In this document: positions 12,968 through 19,168 of the stretch, in pieces
Layout: each line of letters begins with the position of its first letter
How positions within the stretch are numbered: position 1 is the stretch's first letter
Source of the DNA: Candidatus Manganitrophaceae bacterium
GTDB taxonomy: Bacteria > Nitrospirota > Nitrospiria > SBBL01 > JAADHI01
Direction of reading: 5' to 3'
NCBI GenBank assembly: GCA_013151935.1
Contig: JAADHI010000056.1
Coordinates: forward strand, 1-42,015
Length of the DNA stretch: 42,015 bases
Made by a program: the position numbers and the translations under genes
The notes under the pieces: generated by a model
What the model saw: only the letters and a program-made list of their open reading frames with translations
Databases searched by the model: none
What the model was told of the DNA's origin: nothing

Positions 12968-15679
12968 ATGTACAAGTCAATCTATATCCCGGTGGACAAC
13001 TCGGATTTTTCAAATACGGCGATCGACATTGGGATGACTCTGGCCCAGAAATTTGGGTCAAAGGTCATTGGCAGCCATGCTTATGCTGCAAAACTACATG
13101 ATAAGCGCTTCAAGCAAATGGAGGCTGGCTTGCCTGAAGAGTATCATGATGAAAATGAGTTGGAGCGTCAGCGCAAAATTCACGACTCTTTGATTACGCG
13201 GGGCTTGGAAATCATTACCGATTCCTATCTTGACATTATTGATCAAAAGGCCAGCGAAAGTAATGTGCCTGTCGAGCGGGTTTCTCTCGAAGGAAAGAAT
13301 TATAAAGTCCTGGTCGAAGACATCGTTAAAAATGGCTACGACTTGGTGATTTTAGGTGCGCTCGGTGTGGGTGCGGTCAAAGAAAGTTTAATTGGTAGTG
13401 TCACAGAGCGGACGATTCGTCGTGTCCGGCAATCGGATATTTTTGTGGTTAAGGAACCGACACTTTCGATTCCAGAAAATATGAAAAACCGAAAAATTGT
13501 TGTCGCTGTAGATGGCAGCCATCATTCCTTTGGTGGCTTCAAAACGGGATTGGCGCTTGCAAAGGCCTATGATCTGCCTTTGGATATTGTTTCGGCTTTT
13601 GATCCTTATTATCACTATGCGGTCTTTAATTCGATTTCAGGTGTCCTAAATGAAGAAGCGGGTAAGGTTTTCCGTTTTAAAGAACAAGAAAAATTACACG
13701 AAGATGTGATCGATTCGGGGCTTGCGAAAATTTATCAAAGCCATCTTGAGGTCTGCACAACACTTGCAAAAGAGGAGGGGGTGAAGATCAGTACCTCTCT
13801 CTTGGATGGCAAGCCTTTTGAAAAAGTGTTGCAATACGTCAAAAAAGAAAAACCTTGGTTGTTGATCGTCGGTCGTATTGGGGTGCATTCTGATAGCGAC
13901 ATGGATGTGGGGAGCAACTCTGAGAACCTGGTGCGCATGGCCCCTTGCAATGTCCTGATTTCCAACAAAACGTATATGCCACCCATTGACGCGATTGCTG
14001 AATATACGGTGGCTTGGACAGAAGAAGCCTCAAAACGCATGGAAAAAGTGCCGATCTTTGCGCGCGGTGTGGCCAAAACCGCCGTTTATCGTTATGCCGT
14101 CGAAAAAGGGTATTCCATCATTACGAACTCTGTTGTGGATGCTGCGATGGGTGACATCCTGCCGCAATCTTCCATCGACATGATGAAAAATATGGGCAAA
14201 ACCTTAGACGAAAAAGGCATTGACCGAAACAAAATGAAGGCCGATGATGCTGTCGTCGAAAGTTTAAAAAGTGGTGGTATTGCAGGGATGATGACGAATA
14301 TCGTCAAAGATCGTGATACCGAACGTGCCGAAAGTTATGACGAAAAAGCGAAAAATGATTTTTATGTTTGCAGCAACTGTGGTTATACGGCAAAAGGGGC
14401 AAAACCTGTCGAGTGTCCGATTTGCAGCGCAGACAGTGAGTCCTTTAACTTTTTGGATAAATCGCTCTTTGAGTCGGCAGCCAAGGCAGAAGGCGGACTT
14501 TCTTTGGAAGTCGGCTACGATGGTGTGCCTTTGAATTGGACGGAAGATGCAAAAAACACACTACGAGCAGTTCCTGCGGGTTTTGAGCGTCGTCGGGCAA
14601 AGGCAAAAGTTGAAAAGACCGCGCGAAAAATGGGGTTTCAAACCATTGCAAATGAGTTTGCAATTCGCATGATTAAAGGGCTTGATGAGATGCTGGACGA
14701 GGGTGTTGAAATTGGAGGAAATGCGATTTCAAAGGCCGTCAGCCAAATGAAAGCTGAAAAAGAGGCCGCGCAAAAACCCGAAGTTACCAAAGCCAAACCG
14801 ACAAAACCTCAGTTTACCTGGAGTGATGAAGGCATGGCGCGTATTGAGCGTGTGCCAGTGGGTTTTATGCGGGACGCGACTCGTCAGCACATTGAAAACT
14901 ATGCATTTTCCAATGATATTACACATATGACGCTTGAGGTTGTGGAAGCGGGAATTGAAAAGGCAACCTCTGAAATGGAAGCAGTGCTTTCTGGCGCGTC
15001 CAGTTTAGACGAAATTAAAAAACAAATGGCCAAAATGGCGGGGAGTGACGACGCGGTATCTGAAAACGAGAAGCCGCTGCACTTCTGTGGGATGTGTGGA
15101 CATGTTGTGCGAAACCTCCCGGAATCCTGTCCTGTTTGCGAAGCGAAAAGTGCCCGTTTTGTCCTGATGCGTGAAGAGATTGATTATTTTATCTGCATGG
15201 TTTGTAGTCTTGTTTCAGAAGAAAACGCGCCGGAGCCGTGTTCGCTTTGTGGTGCGGGAGGTGAATACGGGCTAAAGCTTGAGCGAAAAGAAAGTCTCGT
15301 TAAGGATGAGGCACAAATGTCTTGGACGGAAGCAGGCACAGCGATTTTGAGAGAAATTCCAGAGGGTTTCATGAGAGATATGACCCGTTGGCGTATTGAG
15401 GCCGATGCCCGAAAAAAGGGTGTGTACCAGATTGACCCTTCGGTCGTGCAGGCAAAATACACGCAGTGGACGCAGGTCTCTAAAAAAGTTGAACGGCGTC
15501 TTTCATGGGATGATGAGGCGATCACGCGGATTTCACGTATTCCTTCTTTTGTTAGAGGGACTGTTGTGCAGGAGATTGAATCCTGTGCTGATGAAAAGAA
15601 TCTGACACATGTGACCGTAACATTACTCGATGAAGTGACTGAACGCTGGGCCGAAACAATGCGTCGCCAGGGATTCTAA
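12968..15679 (+). CDS. Tandem universal-stress protein fused to five PCP_red domains and three rubredoxin-like knuckles
   Basis: A 903-residue soluble mosaic. Two universal-stress (Usp) domains, about 1-170 and 176-335, each keep the nucleotide-binding signature: GALGVGAVKESLIGSV and GRIGVHSDSDMDVGSN. Five PCP_red-type domains follow (Trp at 350, 524, 618, 786, 847), each of the form W-x3-A/G-x3-(6 to 8)-P-x-F-R and then a charged helix. This is the domain that ends subunit B of light-independent protochlorophyllide reductase. Three C-x2-C...C-x2-C knuckles start at Cys 468, 707 and 743 and resemble the rubredoxin-like end of rubrerythrin; they could hold iron or zinc. It is the first gene of the operon, 35 bases before the radical SAM gene. 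Function unknown; an ATP-sensing redox scaffold is inference. Domain calls are by eye. Confidence 0.88.
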   Translation: MYKSIYIPVDNSDFSNTAIDIGMTLAQKFGSKVIGSHAYAAKLHDKRFKQMEAGLPEEYHDENELERQRKIHDSLITRGLEIITDSYLDIIDQKASESNVPVERVSLEGKNYKVLVEDIVKNGYDLVILGALGVGAVKESLIGSVTERTIRRVRQSDIFVVKEPTLSIPENMKNRKIVVAVDGSHHSFGGFKTGLALAKAYDLPLDIVSAFDPYYHYAVFNSISGVLNEEAGKVFRFKEQEKLHEDVIDSGLAKIYQSHLEVCTTLAKEEGVKISTSLLDGKPFEKVLQYVKKEKPWLLIVGRIGVHSDSDMDVGSNSENLVRMAPCNVLISNKTYMPPIDAIAEYTVAWTEEASKRMEKVPIFARGVAKTAVYRYAVEKGYSIITNSVVDAAMGDILPQSSIDMMKNMGKTLDEKGIDRNKMKADDAVVESLKSGGIAGMMTNIVKDRDTERAESYDEKAKNDFYVCSNCGYTAKGAKPVECPICSADSESFNFLDKSLFESAAKAEGGLSLEVGYDGVPLNWTEDAKNTLRAVPAGFERRRAKAKVEKTARKMGFQTIANEFAIRMIKGLDEMLDEGVEIGGNAISKAVSQMKAEKEAAQKPEVTKAKPTKPQFTWSDEGMARIERVPVGFMRDATRQHIENYAFSNDITHMTLEVVEAGIEKATSEMEAVLSGASSLDEIKKQMAKMAGSDDAVSENEKPLHFCGMCGHVVRNLPESCPVCEAKSARFVLMREEIDYFICMVCSLVSEENAPEPCSLCGAGGEYGLKLERKESLVKDEAQMSWTEAGTAILREIPEGFMRDMTRWRIEADARKKGVYQIDPSVVQAKYTQWTQVSKKVERRLSWDDEAITRISRIPSFVRGTVVQEIESCADEKNLTHVTVTLLDEVTERWAETMRRQGF

Positions 15680-15714: not shown

Positions 15715-17097
15715 ATGGCGTATCAGGCCTATTCTGTTTCATGGAATTTAACACAACGCTGTAATCTTTTTTGTACGCACTGTTACATGAGTGCTTTTCC
15801 GAATGCCGATGTTTCTGGCGATCTTACGACGGAAGAGTGTTTTAAGGTGATGGACGACATCGAAAAGGTTAACCCCAATGTCTTTCTTATTTTGACGGGC
15901 GGGGAACCGCTTGTTCGAAAAGATATTTTTGATATTGCCGGATATGGTTCGGACAAGGGTTTCACCTGTGTCTTGGGTACAAATGGTGTGCTTTTGGGTA
16001 AAACCGAAGCACGTAAAATGCGTGAGAGTGGTTTGCAAGGGGCATCAATCAGTCTTGATTCGGTTGATGCTGTCAAGCATGACCAATTTCGCCAGCTTCA
16101 GGGTTCGTGGAAAAATGCCATTCGTGGGATTGAACATTTAAAAAACGAGGGACTTGATTTCTCAATCCACATGAGTGTCATGGATTGGAATGTTTCTGAA
16201 ATTCCCCTAATGATTGACTTGTCGCGGAAACTGGGTGCAAAAGTGCTCAACTTCTTTTTCCTCATTCAAACGGGGCGTGCCGAAGGCATCACAGATATCA
16301 ATCCCAGACAGTATCGAGAGATTCTGACCTACCTCGCACGGGCACAAGGGGTGGGTTCTGAAAAAATGAGTGAAGAGAATATTTTTACGCAATACGATGA
16401 TCCCTGGACGCAGCCTGCTGGACGCAGTCATGATTTGATCCTGCGTGCCAAATGTGCCCCGCATTTTAGAAAGGTGATTTATGATCTTGATCCGGAATCC
16501 CCTTTACTCAAAAATTATGCGCAAGGCAGTTGCCCTGCGGGCAAATATTATTGCCGCATCACGCCTGAAGGCGACATTACCCCTTGTCCTTACATGCCGG
16601 TCAGTGCCGGAAATCTAAGAGAGCAGTCTTTTGATGATATTTGGCACAATTCGCCTATTTTGAATGATTTAAGAGATCCCGTTTTAGGTGGACGTTGCGG
16701 CGAATGTGAATTTTCGGAAATGTGTAGTGGGTGTCGTTGTCGTGCTTATGCTGCCCACGATGATTATTTGGCCGAAGACCCGGCGTGTGATTATCAGCCA
16801 GGGCAATATGGCGGAGAAAAAATTTCACTGGGTGCGGATCAGACCTTTGGACTGGAAGTGAAGATGACCTTAGCGTGGGATGCCGCTTCGCTTGAGCGTT
16901 TAAATGGGCTGCCTTCATTTGCGCGCGGCATGGTTTCAGGTGGTGTAGAGCGTTATGCCAAGGAAAATGGCATCACCCACATCACGCCGGAAGTGATGCA
17001 GATTGTACGTGAGGCGGCGGAACTTCGGATGGGACGACGTTTCAATTTTACAGAATTTGATCGTGGTGTTCCTGAAGGTTCTGTATCTAAAAAGTAA
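15715..17097 (+). CDS. AhbD/NirJ-like radical SAM-SPASM enzyme with C-terminal PCP_red domain
   Basis: The 460-residue protein opens with SVSWNLTQRCNLFCTHCYMS: the radical SAM cluster Cys are 16, 20 and 23, followed by TGGEP at 61-65 and GTNGVLL. The pattern (HDQFRQLQGSWKNAIRGIEH, TGRAEGI) is that of the heme-pathway enzymes AhbC/AhbD/NirJ. The SPASM part carries Cys at 273, 280, 290, 328, 331, 337, 340, 342 and in DPACDY, with ITPEGDITPCPYMPVSAGNL strongly AhbD-like; it should bind auxiliary Fe-S clusters. After about residue 385 it adds a PCP_red domain (Trp388, LPSFARGM, ERYAKENGITHITPEVM), which is not part of AhbD or NirJ. Substrate unknown: tetrapyrrole or peptide modification are both possible. 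Next gene follows after 13 bases. Confidence 0.88.
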   Translation: MAYQAYSVSWNLTQRCNLFCTHCYMSAFPNADVSGDLTTEECFKVMDDIEKVNPNVFLILTGGEPLVRKDIFDIAGYGSDKGFTCVLGTNGVLLGKTEARKMRESGLQGASISLDSVDAVKHDQFRQLQGSWKNAIRGIEHLKNEGLDFSIHMSVMDWNVSEIPLMIDLSRKLGAKVLNFFFLIQTGRAEGITDINPRQYREILTYLARAQGVGSEKMSEENIFTQYDDPWTQPAGRSHDLILRAKCAPHFRKVIYDLDPESPLLKNYAQGSCPAGKYYCRITPEGDITPCPYMPVSAGNLREQSFDDIWHNSPILNDLRDPVLGGRCGECEFSEMCSGCRCRAYAAHDDYLAEDPACDYQPGQYGGEKISLGADQTFGLEVKMTLAWDAASLERLNGLPSFARGMVSGGVERYAKENGITHITPEVMQIVREAAELRMGRRFNFTEFDRGVPEGSVSKK

Positions 17098-17110: not shown

Positions 17111-18100
17111 ATGTTTGGATCAAAAAAAGAAGTCTCGCCCATTACCTGGACCCCAGAGGCTGAAAAACGTCTCAAAAAAGCACCTTTTTTTCTGCGAAAA
17201 ATGGTACGCAGTCTTTCTGAAAAAAAGGCGACCGAGCTTGGCATTACTGTTATTACCCCGGAAGTCTTGGCGCAGTTTAAAGATAAGATGATGACTCCAA
17301 TGGCGGCTCAGGGGACGGGTGCGGTCCATGATGAAGCAGGTGTTGAAACAAAGGCCCTGGCTTGGACACGTGAGGCGACCGAACGTCTTGAAACCGTTCC
17401 TCAATTTATGCGGAGCATGATCAAAAAAATCGCGGAAGAAGTTGCACTTGAACGCGGACACCTTGAAGTGGACATGGAATTGCTTAAAAAGGCTGAATCC
17501 CTTGGTGATGCAAAAGACGAGCAGGCGGGCCCCGCCATGGCCTGGACAGATGCCGCAACTGTGCGACTTGAACAAAAAATCGCAGAAGCACCGGAAATGG
17601 CACGTGATTTTGTGCGAGACATGTTGAAAAATGATGCCGAAGATTTAGCCCGAGAAATGGGGATTGAACGGATTGATTTGGCTGCGGCGACCCAGATTTG
17701 GGATTCGCCCAAGAGTGATATTACTTGGAGTGTGGAAGCGGAAAAGCGCCTGATGACCTCCCCTGATTTTGTGCGCAGTGGCATCAAAAAAGCGGCTGAA
17801 CGCCGCGCGCGTAAAATGGGCTTGACCACCGTGACCTCTGAGCATTTGACCCAGTTTAGAAACAAAGCCATGATGAAGGCCATGAAACGGCTGCGGACCT
17901 TTGGTTATGATGAGATGACTTTTGATGGTTTTGAAGATGCAAAAGAGAATATACGTCGTCTTCAAAACAATCCCGAAGCTGCAAAACGACTTGACGATAT
18001 TAAAGACTACATGGGGAAAAAGGGCAAAGTCGGTCTTATTGATGAAGAGATGCTTGAGCAGATGAAGGATTATCTTAAAGATCCTTCAAAAAAAATGTAA
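17111..18100 (+). CDS. Protein of four PCP_red repeats
   Basis: Start at ATG 17111 after AAGAGG; the frame continues upstream into the radical SAM gene but has no ribosome site there. The 329-residue protein is almost entirely PCP_red-type domains, beginning at ITWTPEAEKRLKKAPFFLRK, LAWTREATERLETVPQFMRS, MAWTDAATVRLEQKIAEAP and ITWSVEAEKRLMTSPDFVRS. Each keeps the Trp, the acidic-Ala pair, the Pro and an Arg-rich helix. The third has a short insertion before its Pro. A last 70 residues are charged helix (GFEDAKENIRRLQNNPEAAK). There are no Cys, membrane segments or signal. Together with its neighbours this makes ten PCP_red copies in three consecutive genes. Role unknown: substrate or partner-binding scaffold is inference. 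Confidence 0.85.
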   Translation: MFGSKKEVSPITWTPEAEKRLKKAPFFLRKMVRSLSEKKATELGITVITPEVLAQFKDKMMTPMAAQGTGAVHDEAGVETKALAWTREATERLETVPQFMRSMIKKIAEEVALERGHLEVDMELLKKAESLGDAKDEQAGPAMAWTDAATVRLEQKIAEAPEMARDFVRDMLKNDAEDLAREMGIERIDLAAATQIWDSPKSDITWSVEAEKRLMTSPDFVRSGIKKAAERRARKMGLTTVTSEHLTQFRNKAMMKAMKRLRTFGYDEMTFDGFEDAKENIRRLQNNPEAAKRLDDIKDYMGKKGKVGLIDEEMLEQMKDYLKDPSKKM

Positions 18101-18132: not shown

Positions 18133-18573
18133 ATGGACCCTAAAGCAACGATAATCCATTGGCTACATTTGATGGGGGCAATTTTTTGGATTGGTGGCAA
18201 TGCCTATCAGGTTTTTGTCTTGATGCCCTTTCTGAAGTCGGGTCAACCCCCGAAAGAGATTCTGAAAAAAATATCAAAACGTTTTATTATTAGCTCTTCC
18301 ATTATTTTGATTGTTCTTGTTATTACTGGAGGGCTCAATTTTGGTTATAGGGTTGCGGGTGTTGAAGAAGTTCCAGGGGCTTACGTTTCAGCCCTGGCCA
18401 TCAAAGTTTTTTTAATCGTTGGCATGGGTTCTGTGCTCGTTTTTGGTTTTGTCGGTTCTTCAAACGAAGACAGTGAGACTCCTGTACCCAGTTTGCGTCA
18501 TGCGAAAGTGAGTCTTGTTTTTGGGGTTCTCATTGTTTTTGTTGCGGCAATGCTAAGGCATTGGCGCTTTTAG
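18133..18573 (+). CDS. CopD/HemJ-like four-helix membrane protein
   Basis: A 146-residue integral membrane protein with four hydrophobic helices: about 7-31 (IIHWLHLMGAIFWIGGNAYQ), 50-70 (FIISSSIILIVLVITGGLNF), 84-106 (ALAIKVFLIVGMGSVLVFGF) and 124-142. The His-x2-His and FWIGG in helix 1 are shared by CopD-type proteins and by HemJ-type oxidases, in which His residues bind heme. I cannot separate these two by eye. It follows the PCP_red repeat gene by 32 bases and is probably its membrane partner; the nearby AhbD-like radical SAM enzyme would suit a heme link. Good ribosome site (GAGG) before the ATG. Confidence 0.75.
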   Translation: MDPKATIIHWLHLMGAIFWIGGNAYQVFVLMPFLKSGQPPKEILKKISKRFIISSSIILIVLVITGGLNFGYRVAGVEEVPGAYVSALAIKVFLIVGMGSVLVFGFVGSSNEDSETPVPSLRHAKVSLVFGVLIVFVAAMLRHWRF

Positions 18574-18607: not shown

Positions 18608-19168
18608 TTGAGAACTCTTAGCGTTCTTGTTCTTTCTTTCCTTTTTTTCCCAAGTGATCTTTTTGCAATTCATGCCATTTTTAAGGGAGTCATGCCGATT
18701 CCCAGAATTCATGGCACCATCAGTCTTGACATGCCGATCGAAACCTTTCGTGAAACGGTCAAGAATACAGAGGTCAGTCCTGCCGTAGGGCAATTTTTGG
18801 ATGAACATCGTTTTGACCTGAATCTAAGCGTTTTTCCCAGCAAGGTCACACAAGTACTTGCTGATTTTTACAAAGGTCGTCTGTTTCGGATCGAAATCAA
18901 TTATAAGGCTGTTTCTAGCAAAAGCGCTGATCTTGAAAGCTTAATTGTGAACAACAACAGGTCTTTTGGCTCACCACGAGAAAACATCTTGCCTGGCGTG
19001 CGCCTCATCTTCTGGGATGATGGGGCGACGCGACTGATCCTCCAGATTGATGATACGGATGCTGTTCTGAATTATTCCTTGACCTATATTGATAACGATC
19101 TCTTTCACACAGCCAGTCGAGATCGGGTGCAAAGAGAAACGGCTGGCCGTTCGAGCTATGGGAAATAG
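18608..19168 (+). CDS. Secreted protein of unknown function, end of the PCP_red operon
   Basis: Starts at TTG 18608, seven bases after TAAGG. The 186-residue product has a signal peptide (residues 1-20, SVLVLSFLFFPSDLFA) and a mixed alpha/beta body with IPRIHGTISLDMPIETFRET, LADFYKGRLFRIEINY and GVRLIFWDDGATRLILQIDD. The last third is a regular beta pattern. I do not recognise a family. It lies 34 bases after the membrane protein gene; a weak stem (AAAGAACC with GGTCTTTT) in that gap overlaps its ribosome site and could act as a partial terminator. Its membership of the operon is therefore likely but not certain. Confidence 0.7.
   Translation: MRTLSVLVLSFLFFPSDLFAIHAIFKGVMPIPRIHGTISLDMPIETFRETVKNTEVSPAVGQFLDEHRFDLNLSVFPSKVTQVLADFYKGRLFRIEINYKAVSSKSADLESLIVNNNRSFGSPRENILPGVRLIFWDDGATRLILQIDDTDAVLNYSLTYIDNDLFHTASRDRVQRETAGRSSYGK

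Follow-up and report, generated by a model that had tools for sequence, protein, structure and literature searches.

A gene encoding a protein of 903 amino acids (aa) that combines two Usp domains, five PCP_red domains and three rubredoxin-like knuckles was identified in a Candidatus Manganitrophaceae bacterium (GTDB lineage Bacteria; Nitrospirota; Nitrospiria; SBBL01; JAADHI01). The gene is located on contig JAADHI010000056.1 of assembly GCA_013151935.1, of which positions 1 to 42,015 of the forward strand (42,015 nucleotides) were analysed as one window. Its open reading frame (ORF) starts with ATG and is intact, with no internal stop codons. The gene and its features are as follows:

12968..15679, plus strand: coding sequence of 903 aa with the order Usp-Usp-PCP1-Rbx1-PCP2-PCP3-Rbx2-Rbx3-PCP4-PCP5 (ORF listing, Pfam)
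12968..13456, plus strand: Usp domain 1, aa 1-163, with G130-x2-G133-x9-G143-S144 (Pfam, conservation, tandem-Usp fold)
13487..13963, plus strand: Usp domain 2, aa 174-332, with G302-x2-G305-x9-G315-S316 (Pfam, conservation, tandem-Usp fold)
14015..14146, plus strand: PCP_red 1, aa 350-393 (Pfam)
14363..14446, plus strand: rubredoxin-like knuckle 1 (Rbx1), C468, C471, C483 and C486 (RUBY_RBDX of Pfam; conserved in 52/52 rows of the alignment described below)
14537..14665, plus strand: PCP_red 2, aa 524-566 (Pfam)
14819..14950, plus strand: PCP_red 3, aa 618-661 (Pfam)
15080..15163, plus strand: rubredoxin-like knuckle 2 (Rbx2), C707, C710, C721 and C724 (Pfam; among the aligned proteins only in the window's order)
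15188..15274, plus strand: rubredoxin-like knuckle 3 (Rbx3), C743, C746, C758 and C761 (Pfam; among the aligned proteins only in the window's order)
15323..15454, plus strand: PCP_red 4, aa 786-829 (Pfam)
15506..15634, plus strand: PCP_red 5, aa 847-889 (Pfam; fold match to 2KRU and 2L09)

The three Pfam families all score over their cut-offs, namely PCP_red (PF08369) with five stretches (165.4 bits, cut-off 32.5), Usp (PF00582) with two (112.8 bits, cut-off 24) and RUBY_RBDX (PF21349) with three (59.9 bits, cut-off 26.5), which confirms the domain content given in an earlier sequence-only reading. The alternation of PCP_red domains and knuckles described there is found roughly; Rbx2 and Rbx3 are adjacent to each other. 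That reading also knew of no named family with this order, and none was found in NCBIfam, Pfam or the literature searched. The best NCBIfam matches are partial and far under cut-off, including the equivalogs for BchB (TIGR01278, 80.5 bits against a cut-off of 490.35), rubrerythrin (25.2 against 200) and nigerythrin (31.4 against 340). No publication on this Usp/PCP_red/rubredoxin architecture was found in the parts of the literature that the search covered. The architecture is a new arrangement of known domains, in a gene set that is nameless in these sources.

The pattern G-x2-G-x9-G(S/T) is the ATP-binding motif of Usp domains, and both Usp domains of the 903-aa protein carry it as G-x2-G-x9-G-S. 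In an alignment of 59 rows (58 distinct proteins, as the genome G205 was entered twice), the six motif glycines and S316 are identical in every row, and S144 is a serine in 56 rows; the glycine pattern claimed earlier for both domains is thus kept throughout. The cysteines of Rbx1 are conserved wherever the segment is present, and the segment is absent from 7 of the 59 rows, all 7 from outside the window's class. All eight cysteines of Rbx2 and Rbx3 are conserved in 16/16 proteins of the window's order. Because full-length homologues show 64-85% identity within the order and about 55-61% elsewhere in the class, chance can be excluded for the 903-aa protein.

The full-chain structural model has a mean predicted local distance difference test (pLDDT) score of 73.1, with most of the Usp part at 80-93 and two linkers under 50; the mean for a model of the C-terminal tail is 76.2. 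The Usp part has the tandem-Usp fold (Foldseek, 3CIS with E 1.9e-16 and 3AB8 with E 1.8e-14), and its fold matches include the ATP-bound TTHA0350. Tandem Usps such as Rv2623 (3CIS), TTHA0350 (3AB8) and UspE (5CB0) likewise have two Usp domains of this fold per chain, and both ATP motifs are kept in the 903-aa protein, but here the Usp pair makes up only the N-terminal third and is followed by the PCP_red domains and knuckles. PCP5 matches the solved PCP_red structures 2KRU (Z 8.2, root-mean-square deviation 4.5, 60 aligned) and 2L09 (Z 8.1, root-mean-square deviation 2.4, 60 aligned) with Foldseek probabilities of 1.00 and 0.99, respectively. The RuvB lid (Z 7.4) came within 1 of these top matches in the fold search, and the specificity of the PCP_red assignment therefore rests on sequence and Foldseek. 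A histone-like or DNA-binding reading of PCP_red, prompted by matches at Z about 7 to the lid domains of RuvB and other AAA+ proteins, was rejected, and no function was drawn from these matches because such values are in the range of common arrangements. PCP_red is the C-terminal domain of BchB, and its sequence and fold are shared with BchB/ChlB of the dark-operative protochlorophyllide reductase (2KRU, 2YNM), but the 903-aa protein is without the nitrogenase-like body. Asr4154 of Nostoc (2L09) is a small PCP_red protein of the same fold, but consists of a single small domain. In the models, the knuckle regions take the form of short strands and turns; the C-x2-C-x11-C-x2-C knuckle is common to the rubredoxin-like domain of rubrerythrin and nigerythrin, whereas the Pfam list of the 903-aa protein contains no ferritin-like domain.

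The spread of the protein was examined with three queries. At a threshold of E 1e-20 or better, the Usp-Usp-PCP-Rbx-PCP part was matched in 111 of 113 sampled genomes of the class, in some cases as fragments, and in 29 of 182 Nitrospirota genomes outside it. The whole chain was matched at E 1e-60 or better in 36 of 41 genomes and more weakly in the remaining five. A scan of genome contigs for named relatives with the C-terminal tail (aa 600-903) yielded 14 loci, 12 of them at 50-72% identity. The nearest named relatives are metagenome-assembled genomes (MAGs) labelled Nitrospiria, Nitrospirota, Ca. Manganitrophus, Ca. Manganitrophaceae and Ca. Troglogloeales; the other two loci belong to a Nitrospirae MAG with a three-PCP_red form and to NIOZ-UU50, a MAG labelled Proteobacteria.

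The architectures form a series. PCP_red domains were counted across loci with a profile built from the copies of the window's own genome, and with Pfam on selected proteins. Three knuckles and five PCP_red domains are found in the window's order, and one knuckle and three PCP_red domains in the rest of the class and, outside it, in L105 and L106. The form Usp-Usp-PCP-PCP occurs in L103, L107-L110 and L116, and Usp-Usp-PCP in L111 and L104, while L112-L115 have Usp-Usp only, adjoining a radical-SAM-PCP gene. In a further locus set, which includes L172, 19 of 20 Usp proteins contain PCP_red, mostly as a single copy. The protein of NIOZ-UU50 has four PCP_red domains and no knuckles; these domains match PCP1, PCP3, PCP4 (in a near tie with PCP3) and PCP5 of the window's protein, and PCP2 is absent. 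This series and the NIOZ-UU50 protein show that the five PCP_red domains differ in type from one another and that a Usp-PCP core carries a variable complement of knuckles. As 7/59 aligned rows and the NIOZ-UU50 protein lack any knuckle, it is unlikely that the function centres on the knuckles. The extra two knuckles and PCP4-PCP5 occur in the order that contains Ca. Manganitrophus, as they might in a manganese- or iron-oxidation device special to its relatives. Such a device is extremely improbable, as the protein is conserved across the class and has relatives in other members of the order and in another phylum.

Four genes follow the 903-aa gene on the same strand, with successive gaps of 35, 13, 32 and 34 bp:

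15715..17097, plus strand: radical SAM-SPASM protein with a C-terminal PCP_red domain, 460 aa (Pfam, NCBIfam)
17111..18100, plus strand: four-PCP_red protein, 329 aa from the ATG at 17111, the ORF opening at 17003 (start as in relatives)
18133..18573, plus strand: small CopD-like protein, 146 aa, weak CopD match (in 19/30 loci)
18608..19168, plus strand: 186-aa protein of no known family (in 11/30 loci)

The radical-SAM protein shares its radical SAM and SPASM domains with NirJ2, AhbD and NirJ and adds a PCP_red tail. Its best NCBIfam models are NirJ2 (306.7 bits) and AhbD (299.7 bits), both with cut-offs of 500, TIGR04053 (252 bits) and NirJ (194 bits). A homologue was detected within the fetched stretch of 50 of the 64 Usp loci (20/25 in the window and first sets, 17/19 in a set that includes the four class loci L118-L121, 12/19 in a third set, plus L172), where L135 and L214 are one record and only L214 was counted. 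These counts were made by tblastn because greedy ORF choice had missed genes (e.g., in L105, L118 and L205). The conserved core consists of Usp-Usp-PCP1 and the radical-SAM neighbour. Among 15 loci of the order, 12 have the four-PCP_red gene immediately 3' of the radical-SAM gene, and in L104 (2324-5906) the radical-SAM domain is fused to four PCP_red domains, so that two adjacent genes of the window appear as one chain. The CopD-like protein has the conserved residues W10, H12, W19, G21 and G22. In the related genomes of L056, L063, L068 and L071, the Usp-PCP-Rbx gene is immediately preceded by genes for an slr0320-like B12 radical-SAM protein and a UbiE-like methyltransferase (the latter identified by eye). 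Proteins of 217-243 aa that form one family are encoded near the radical-SAM or Usp gene in L107, L111-L113, L115 and L117; neither Pfam nor NCBIfam gave a match for the L112 member.

Outside the class, Usp loci often adjoin a cluster encoding c-type cytochromes, a cytochrome c/EB_dh protein and a protein resembling cytochrome bd oxidase. This co-occurring oxidase scores over the PF01654 cut-off of 26.2 bits at L112 (46.2), in the window's genome (73.1) and in G021 (45.5). A bd-like gene was found in 24 of 27 genomes searched, and in 16 of these 24 it lies within 10 kb of the Usp-PCP gene, where about 0.39 genomes would be expected by chance from genome size. Co-occurrence was then counted by phylum, on the assumption that the Usp and oxidase searches of each phylum covered identical genomes (same number, same handles). 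Among 395 genomes of the phylum of G313, both genes are present in 21, the Usp gene alone in 4, the oxidase alone in none and neither in 370 (Fisher test, 3e-31); in G513, one of the four Usp-alone exceptions, a cytochrome c/EB_dh gene stands at the contig end beside the Usp gene. A control with another oxidase gene, ccoN, gave a far weaker link in this phylum (8/25 Usp-positive and 43/370 Usp-negative genomes). The 295 Nitrospirota genomes divide into 134 with both, 6 with Usp alone, 3 with the oxidase alone and 152 with neither, the corresponding numbers outside the class being 23, 6, 1 and 152. Counted by genus, the Nitrospirota show 47 with both, 5 with Usp alone, 0 with the oxidase alone and 83 with neither.

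Within the class, further PCP_red proteins are encoded near the oxidase. A single contig of G021 carries, between about 2.2 and 25.0 kb, genes for Usp-PCP-Rbx, radical-SAM-PCP, CopD-like, four-PCP_red, CADD-like, zinc-ribbon-PCP2, Mrp, cytochrome c/EB_dh, bd-like oxidase and HemY-like proteins. Of the 16 oxidase loci that were fetched, 7 have a gene for a zinc-ribbon-like protein with two PCP_red domains near the bd-like pair (3 of the 7 were checked with Pfam). In the window's genome, two bd-like genes share a contig with the gene for a ferredoxin that has a PCP_red domain; the L222 homologue of this ferredoxin is also near the oxidase and matches Fer2 only, PCP_red not being reached at the threshold used. 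Functional coupling of the gene set to the bd-like oxidase is considered probable and is the best-supported step of the interpretation; the window by itself gives no sign of it.

The co-occurring oxidase has a CydA-like domain, and its neighbours include c-type cytochrome and EB_dh proteins; in this it resembles TO_1 of Ca. Manganitrophus (PMC9040806) and the OR-N CydAA' (PMC12342949) as described in the available portions of these reports. This likeness is a lead that the oxidase may be TO_1 or OR-N CydAA'. Neither PMC9040806 nor PMC12342949 uses the words universal stress, radical SAM or protochlorophyllide in its main text. For the haem ligands of the bd-like oxidase, a sequence search of solved structures gave only weak matches to bd subunit I.

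The near-universal presence of the set in the class, where any two core genes co-occur, together with the stepwise change of its architectures by lineage, would also be expected if domains had passively accreted on a lineage-specific Usp protein and the oxidase link reflected the shared ancestry of core genes. Ancestry alone, however, does not explain the proximity in 16/24 genomes outside the class or the genus-level concordance, and the cysteines and PCP_red types are strongly constrained; passive accretion is quite unlikely. The coupling would suit regulation equally well as maturation. As a regulator, the protein would sense ATP or energy through its Usp head and redox state or metal through its knuckles, and would adjust the bd-like chain or the cytochromes, with the radical-SAM enzyme modifying the regulator or a peptide. 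The invariance of the glycines in both Usp ATP motifs, the fold matches to the ATP-bound TTHA0350 and to Rv2623, and a knuckle number that varies (3, 1, 0) as sensing add-ons might, are consistent with this role. However, a Pfam search of the 903-aa protein gave no domain for DNA binding or signalling output that exceeds its cut-off, and a radical-SAM partner in 50/64 loci points to chemistry. A regulator is somewhat unlikely.

The genome of the window's organism contains 13 PCP_red copies in five open frames, none of which encodes BchB. Ten copies are encoded by the 903-aa, radical-SAM and four-PCP_red genes, two by the gene for a zinc-ribbon-like protein on contig 70 and one by the gene for the 2Fe-2S ferredoxin on contig 164. 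On contig 70 (L064 5361-7719), genes for an Mrp/ApbC-type carrier, the zinc-ribbon protein with two PCP_red domains and a CADD/PqqC-like protein stand in a row, and the pair of Mrp and zinc-ribbon-PCP2 genes also occurs in L058, L066 and L069; the carrier scores 262 bits to MrpORP, with a cut-off of 450. Contig 164 (L065 480-10041) carries the two bd-like genes, the ferredoxin-PCP_red gene and a B12-type radical-SAM gene, which is nearest to the cyanobacterial slr0320 family (460 of 775 bits). The occurrence of PCP_red in a 2Fe-2S ferredoxin and in zinc-ribbon proteins beside an Mrp/ApbC-type carrier (L058, L064, L066, L069) would fit a scaffold for the assembly of iron-sulphur or metal cofactors, not tetrapyrrole chemistry, in which PCP_red serves as a general docking module of radical-SAM proteins, ferredoxins and Mrp-type carriers. 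The Mrp link, however, is found at loci other than that of the 903-aa gene, G021 excepted, and no invariant cysteines outside the knuckles were found in the 59-row alignment. An assembly scaffold of this kind is decidedly unlikely.

The preferred, though tentative, interpretation, to which we give somewhat less than an even chance, is that a conserved accessory set, comprising the 903-aa protein as its scaffold, the radical-SAM/SPASM-PCP_red enzyme and more PCP_red proteins, assists a bd-like terminal oxidase that has c-type cytochrome partners, through maturation in five steps. In the first step, the tandem Usp head, whose motif is observed, would bind ATP. In the second, the PCP_red modules would hold substrate or partner proteins, probably a haem-type tetrapyrrole, a ligand suggested because the domain is known from the BchB subunit. 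The radical-SAM enzyme, by its similarity to NirJ2 and AhbD, would modify the substrate in the third step, and in the fourth the knuckles may pass single electrons to this enzyme or sense redox state, a part that would be dispensable in the knuckle-less lineages. In the fifth, the product would be passed to the bd-like oxidase, the coupling being drawn from proximity and co-occurrence. Control by ATP, including the control of metal or redox modules by nucleotide state proposed in the earlier reading, and electron transfer by the knuckles are suggestions drawn from the anatomy of the protein. The protein may be an ATP- and redox-responsive scaffold for oxidase maturation, perhaps for haem tailoring, with a chemistry that is itself conjectural.

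That the oxidase coupling represents a maturation involving a tetrapyrrole is doubtful; it is suggested by family resemblance (PCP_red in BchB, and a radical-SAM protein nearest to NirJ2 and AhbD) and by rare gene neighbours. NirJ, AhbC and AhbD act on the side chains of haem-type tetrapyrroles, as described in the available part of PMC7242693. The available parts of PMC7948495 and PMC7242693 gave no role for the PCP_red domain of BchB. HemY or HemY-like neighbours were detected in L103, L104, L228 and L230: in L104 the gene for HemY (protoporphyrinogen oxidase) begins 1 bp after the fused radical-SAM-PCP4 gene, and in L103 it comes after a two-PCP_red gene that itself lies downstream of the Usp gene. 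L197 has an AhbD-like gene (493.5 bits, cut-off 500) after the radical-SAM gene. A HemY operon as a general rule was ruled out, and so was a heme b synthase role for the radical-SAM neighbour, which reaches 300 of 500 bits to AhbD in a genome that has ferrochelatase.

A more specific proposal, which is unlikely, is a dedicated system for haem tailoring and delivery, in which the PCP_red domains would carry a tetrapyrrole, the NirJ/AhbD-like enzyme would modify it, the Usp head would make its release ATP-dependent and the knuckles would give electrons. From this system, bd-like oxidases would receive a haem-type cofactor that is as yet undescribed.

Several observations weigh against the proposed maturation scaffold. 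The co-occurrence tests treat genomes and genera as independent, though they are related by descent. None of the 25 Usp loci of the window and first sets contains a bd-like match, and inside the class the Usp gene usually lies away from the oxidase; in G021 the oxidase is about 13 kb from the Usp gene, outside the stretch examined for this count. The radical-SAM neighbour is absent from 14 of the 64 Usp loci, only L053 and L060 being clearly contig ends, and the window's radical-SAM protein falls under every curated NCBIfam cut-off. HemY occurs in 2/64 Usp loci (one genus) and 2/16 oxidase loci, and an AhbD-like gene in 1/64, which is little above chance. Ferrochelatase is present in the window's genome and HemY is over cut-off in 18 of 21 genomes, and ordinary haem b therefore needs no such radical-SAM enzyme; HemY was not found in the window's own genome, which is 91% complete. 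Binding of a tetrapyrrole by PCP_red was found in no paper within the portions of the literature that were searched.

The available part of PMC12815261 counts PF08369 with the Pfam families of highest prevalence in phototrophs and reports that such families were used to pre-screen genomes. The many PCP_red copies in the window's class would pass such a pre-screen without BchB, which calls for caution. Nitrite oxidisers and complete ammonia oxidisers belong to the class of the window, and manganese oxidisers to its order. These organisms are described in the available parts of PMC12342949 and PMC9040806. The terminal oxidase complexes of manganese oxidisers are called poorly characterized in the part of PMC9040806 that was available, and a conserved, nameless gene set that tracks such an oxidase is a concrete handle on its building or control. 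If the haem-tailoring proposal is true, the cofactor would serve the bd-like oxidases that nitrite-, ammonia- and manganese-oxidising Nitrospirota presumably use for respiration.

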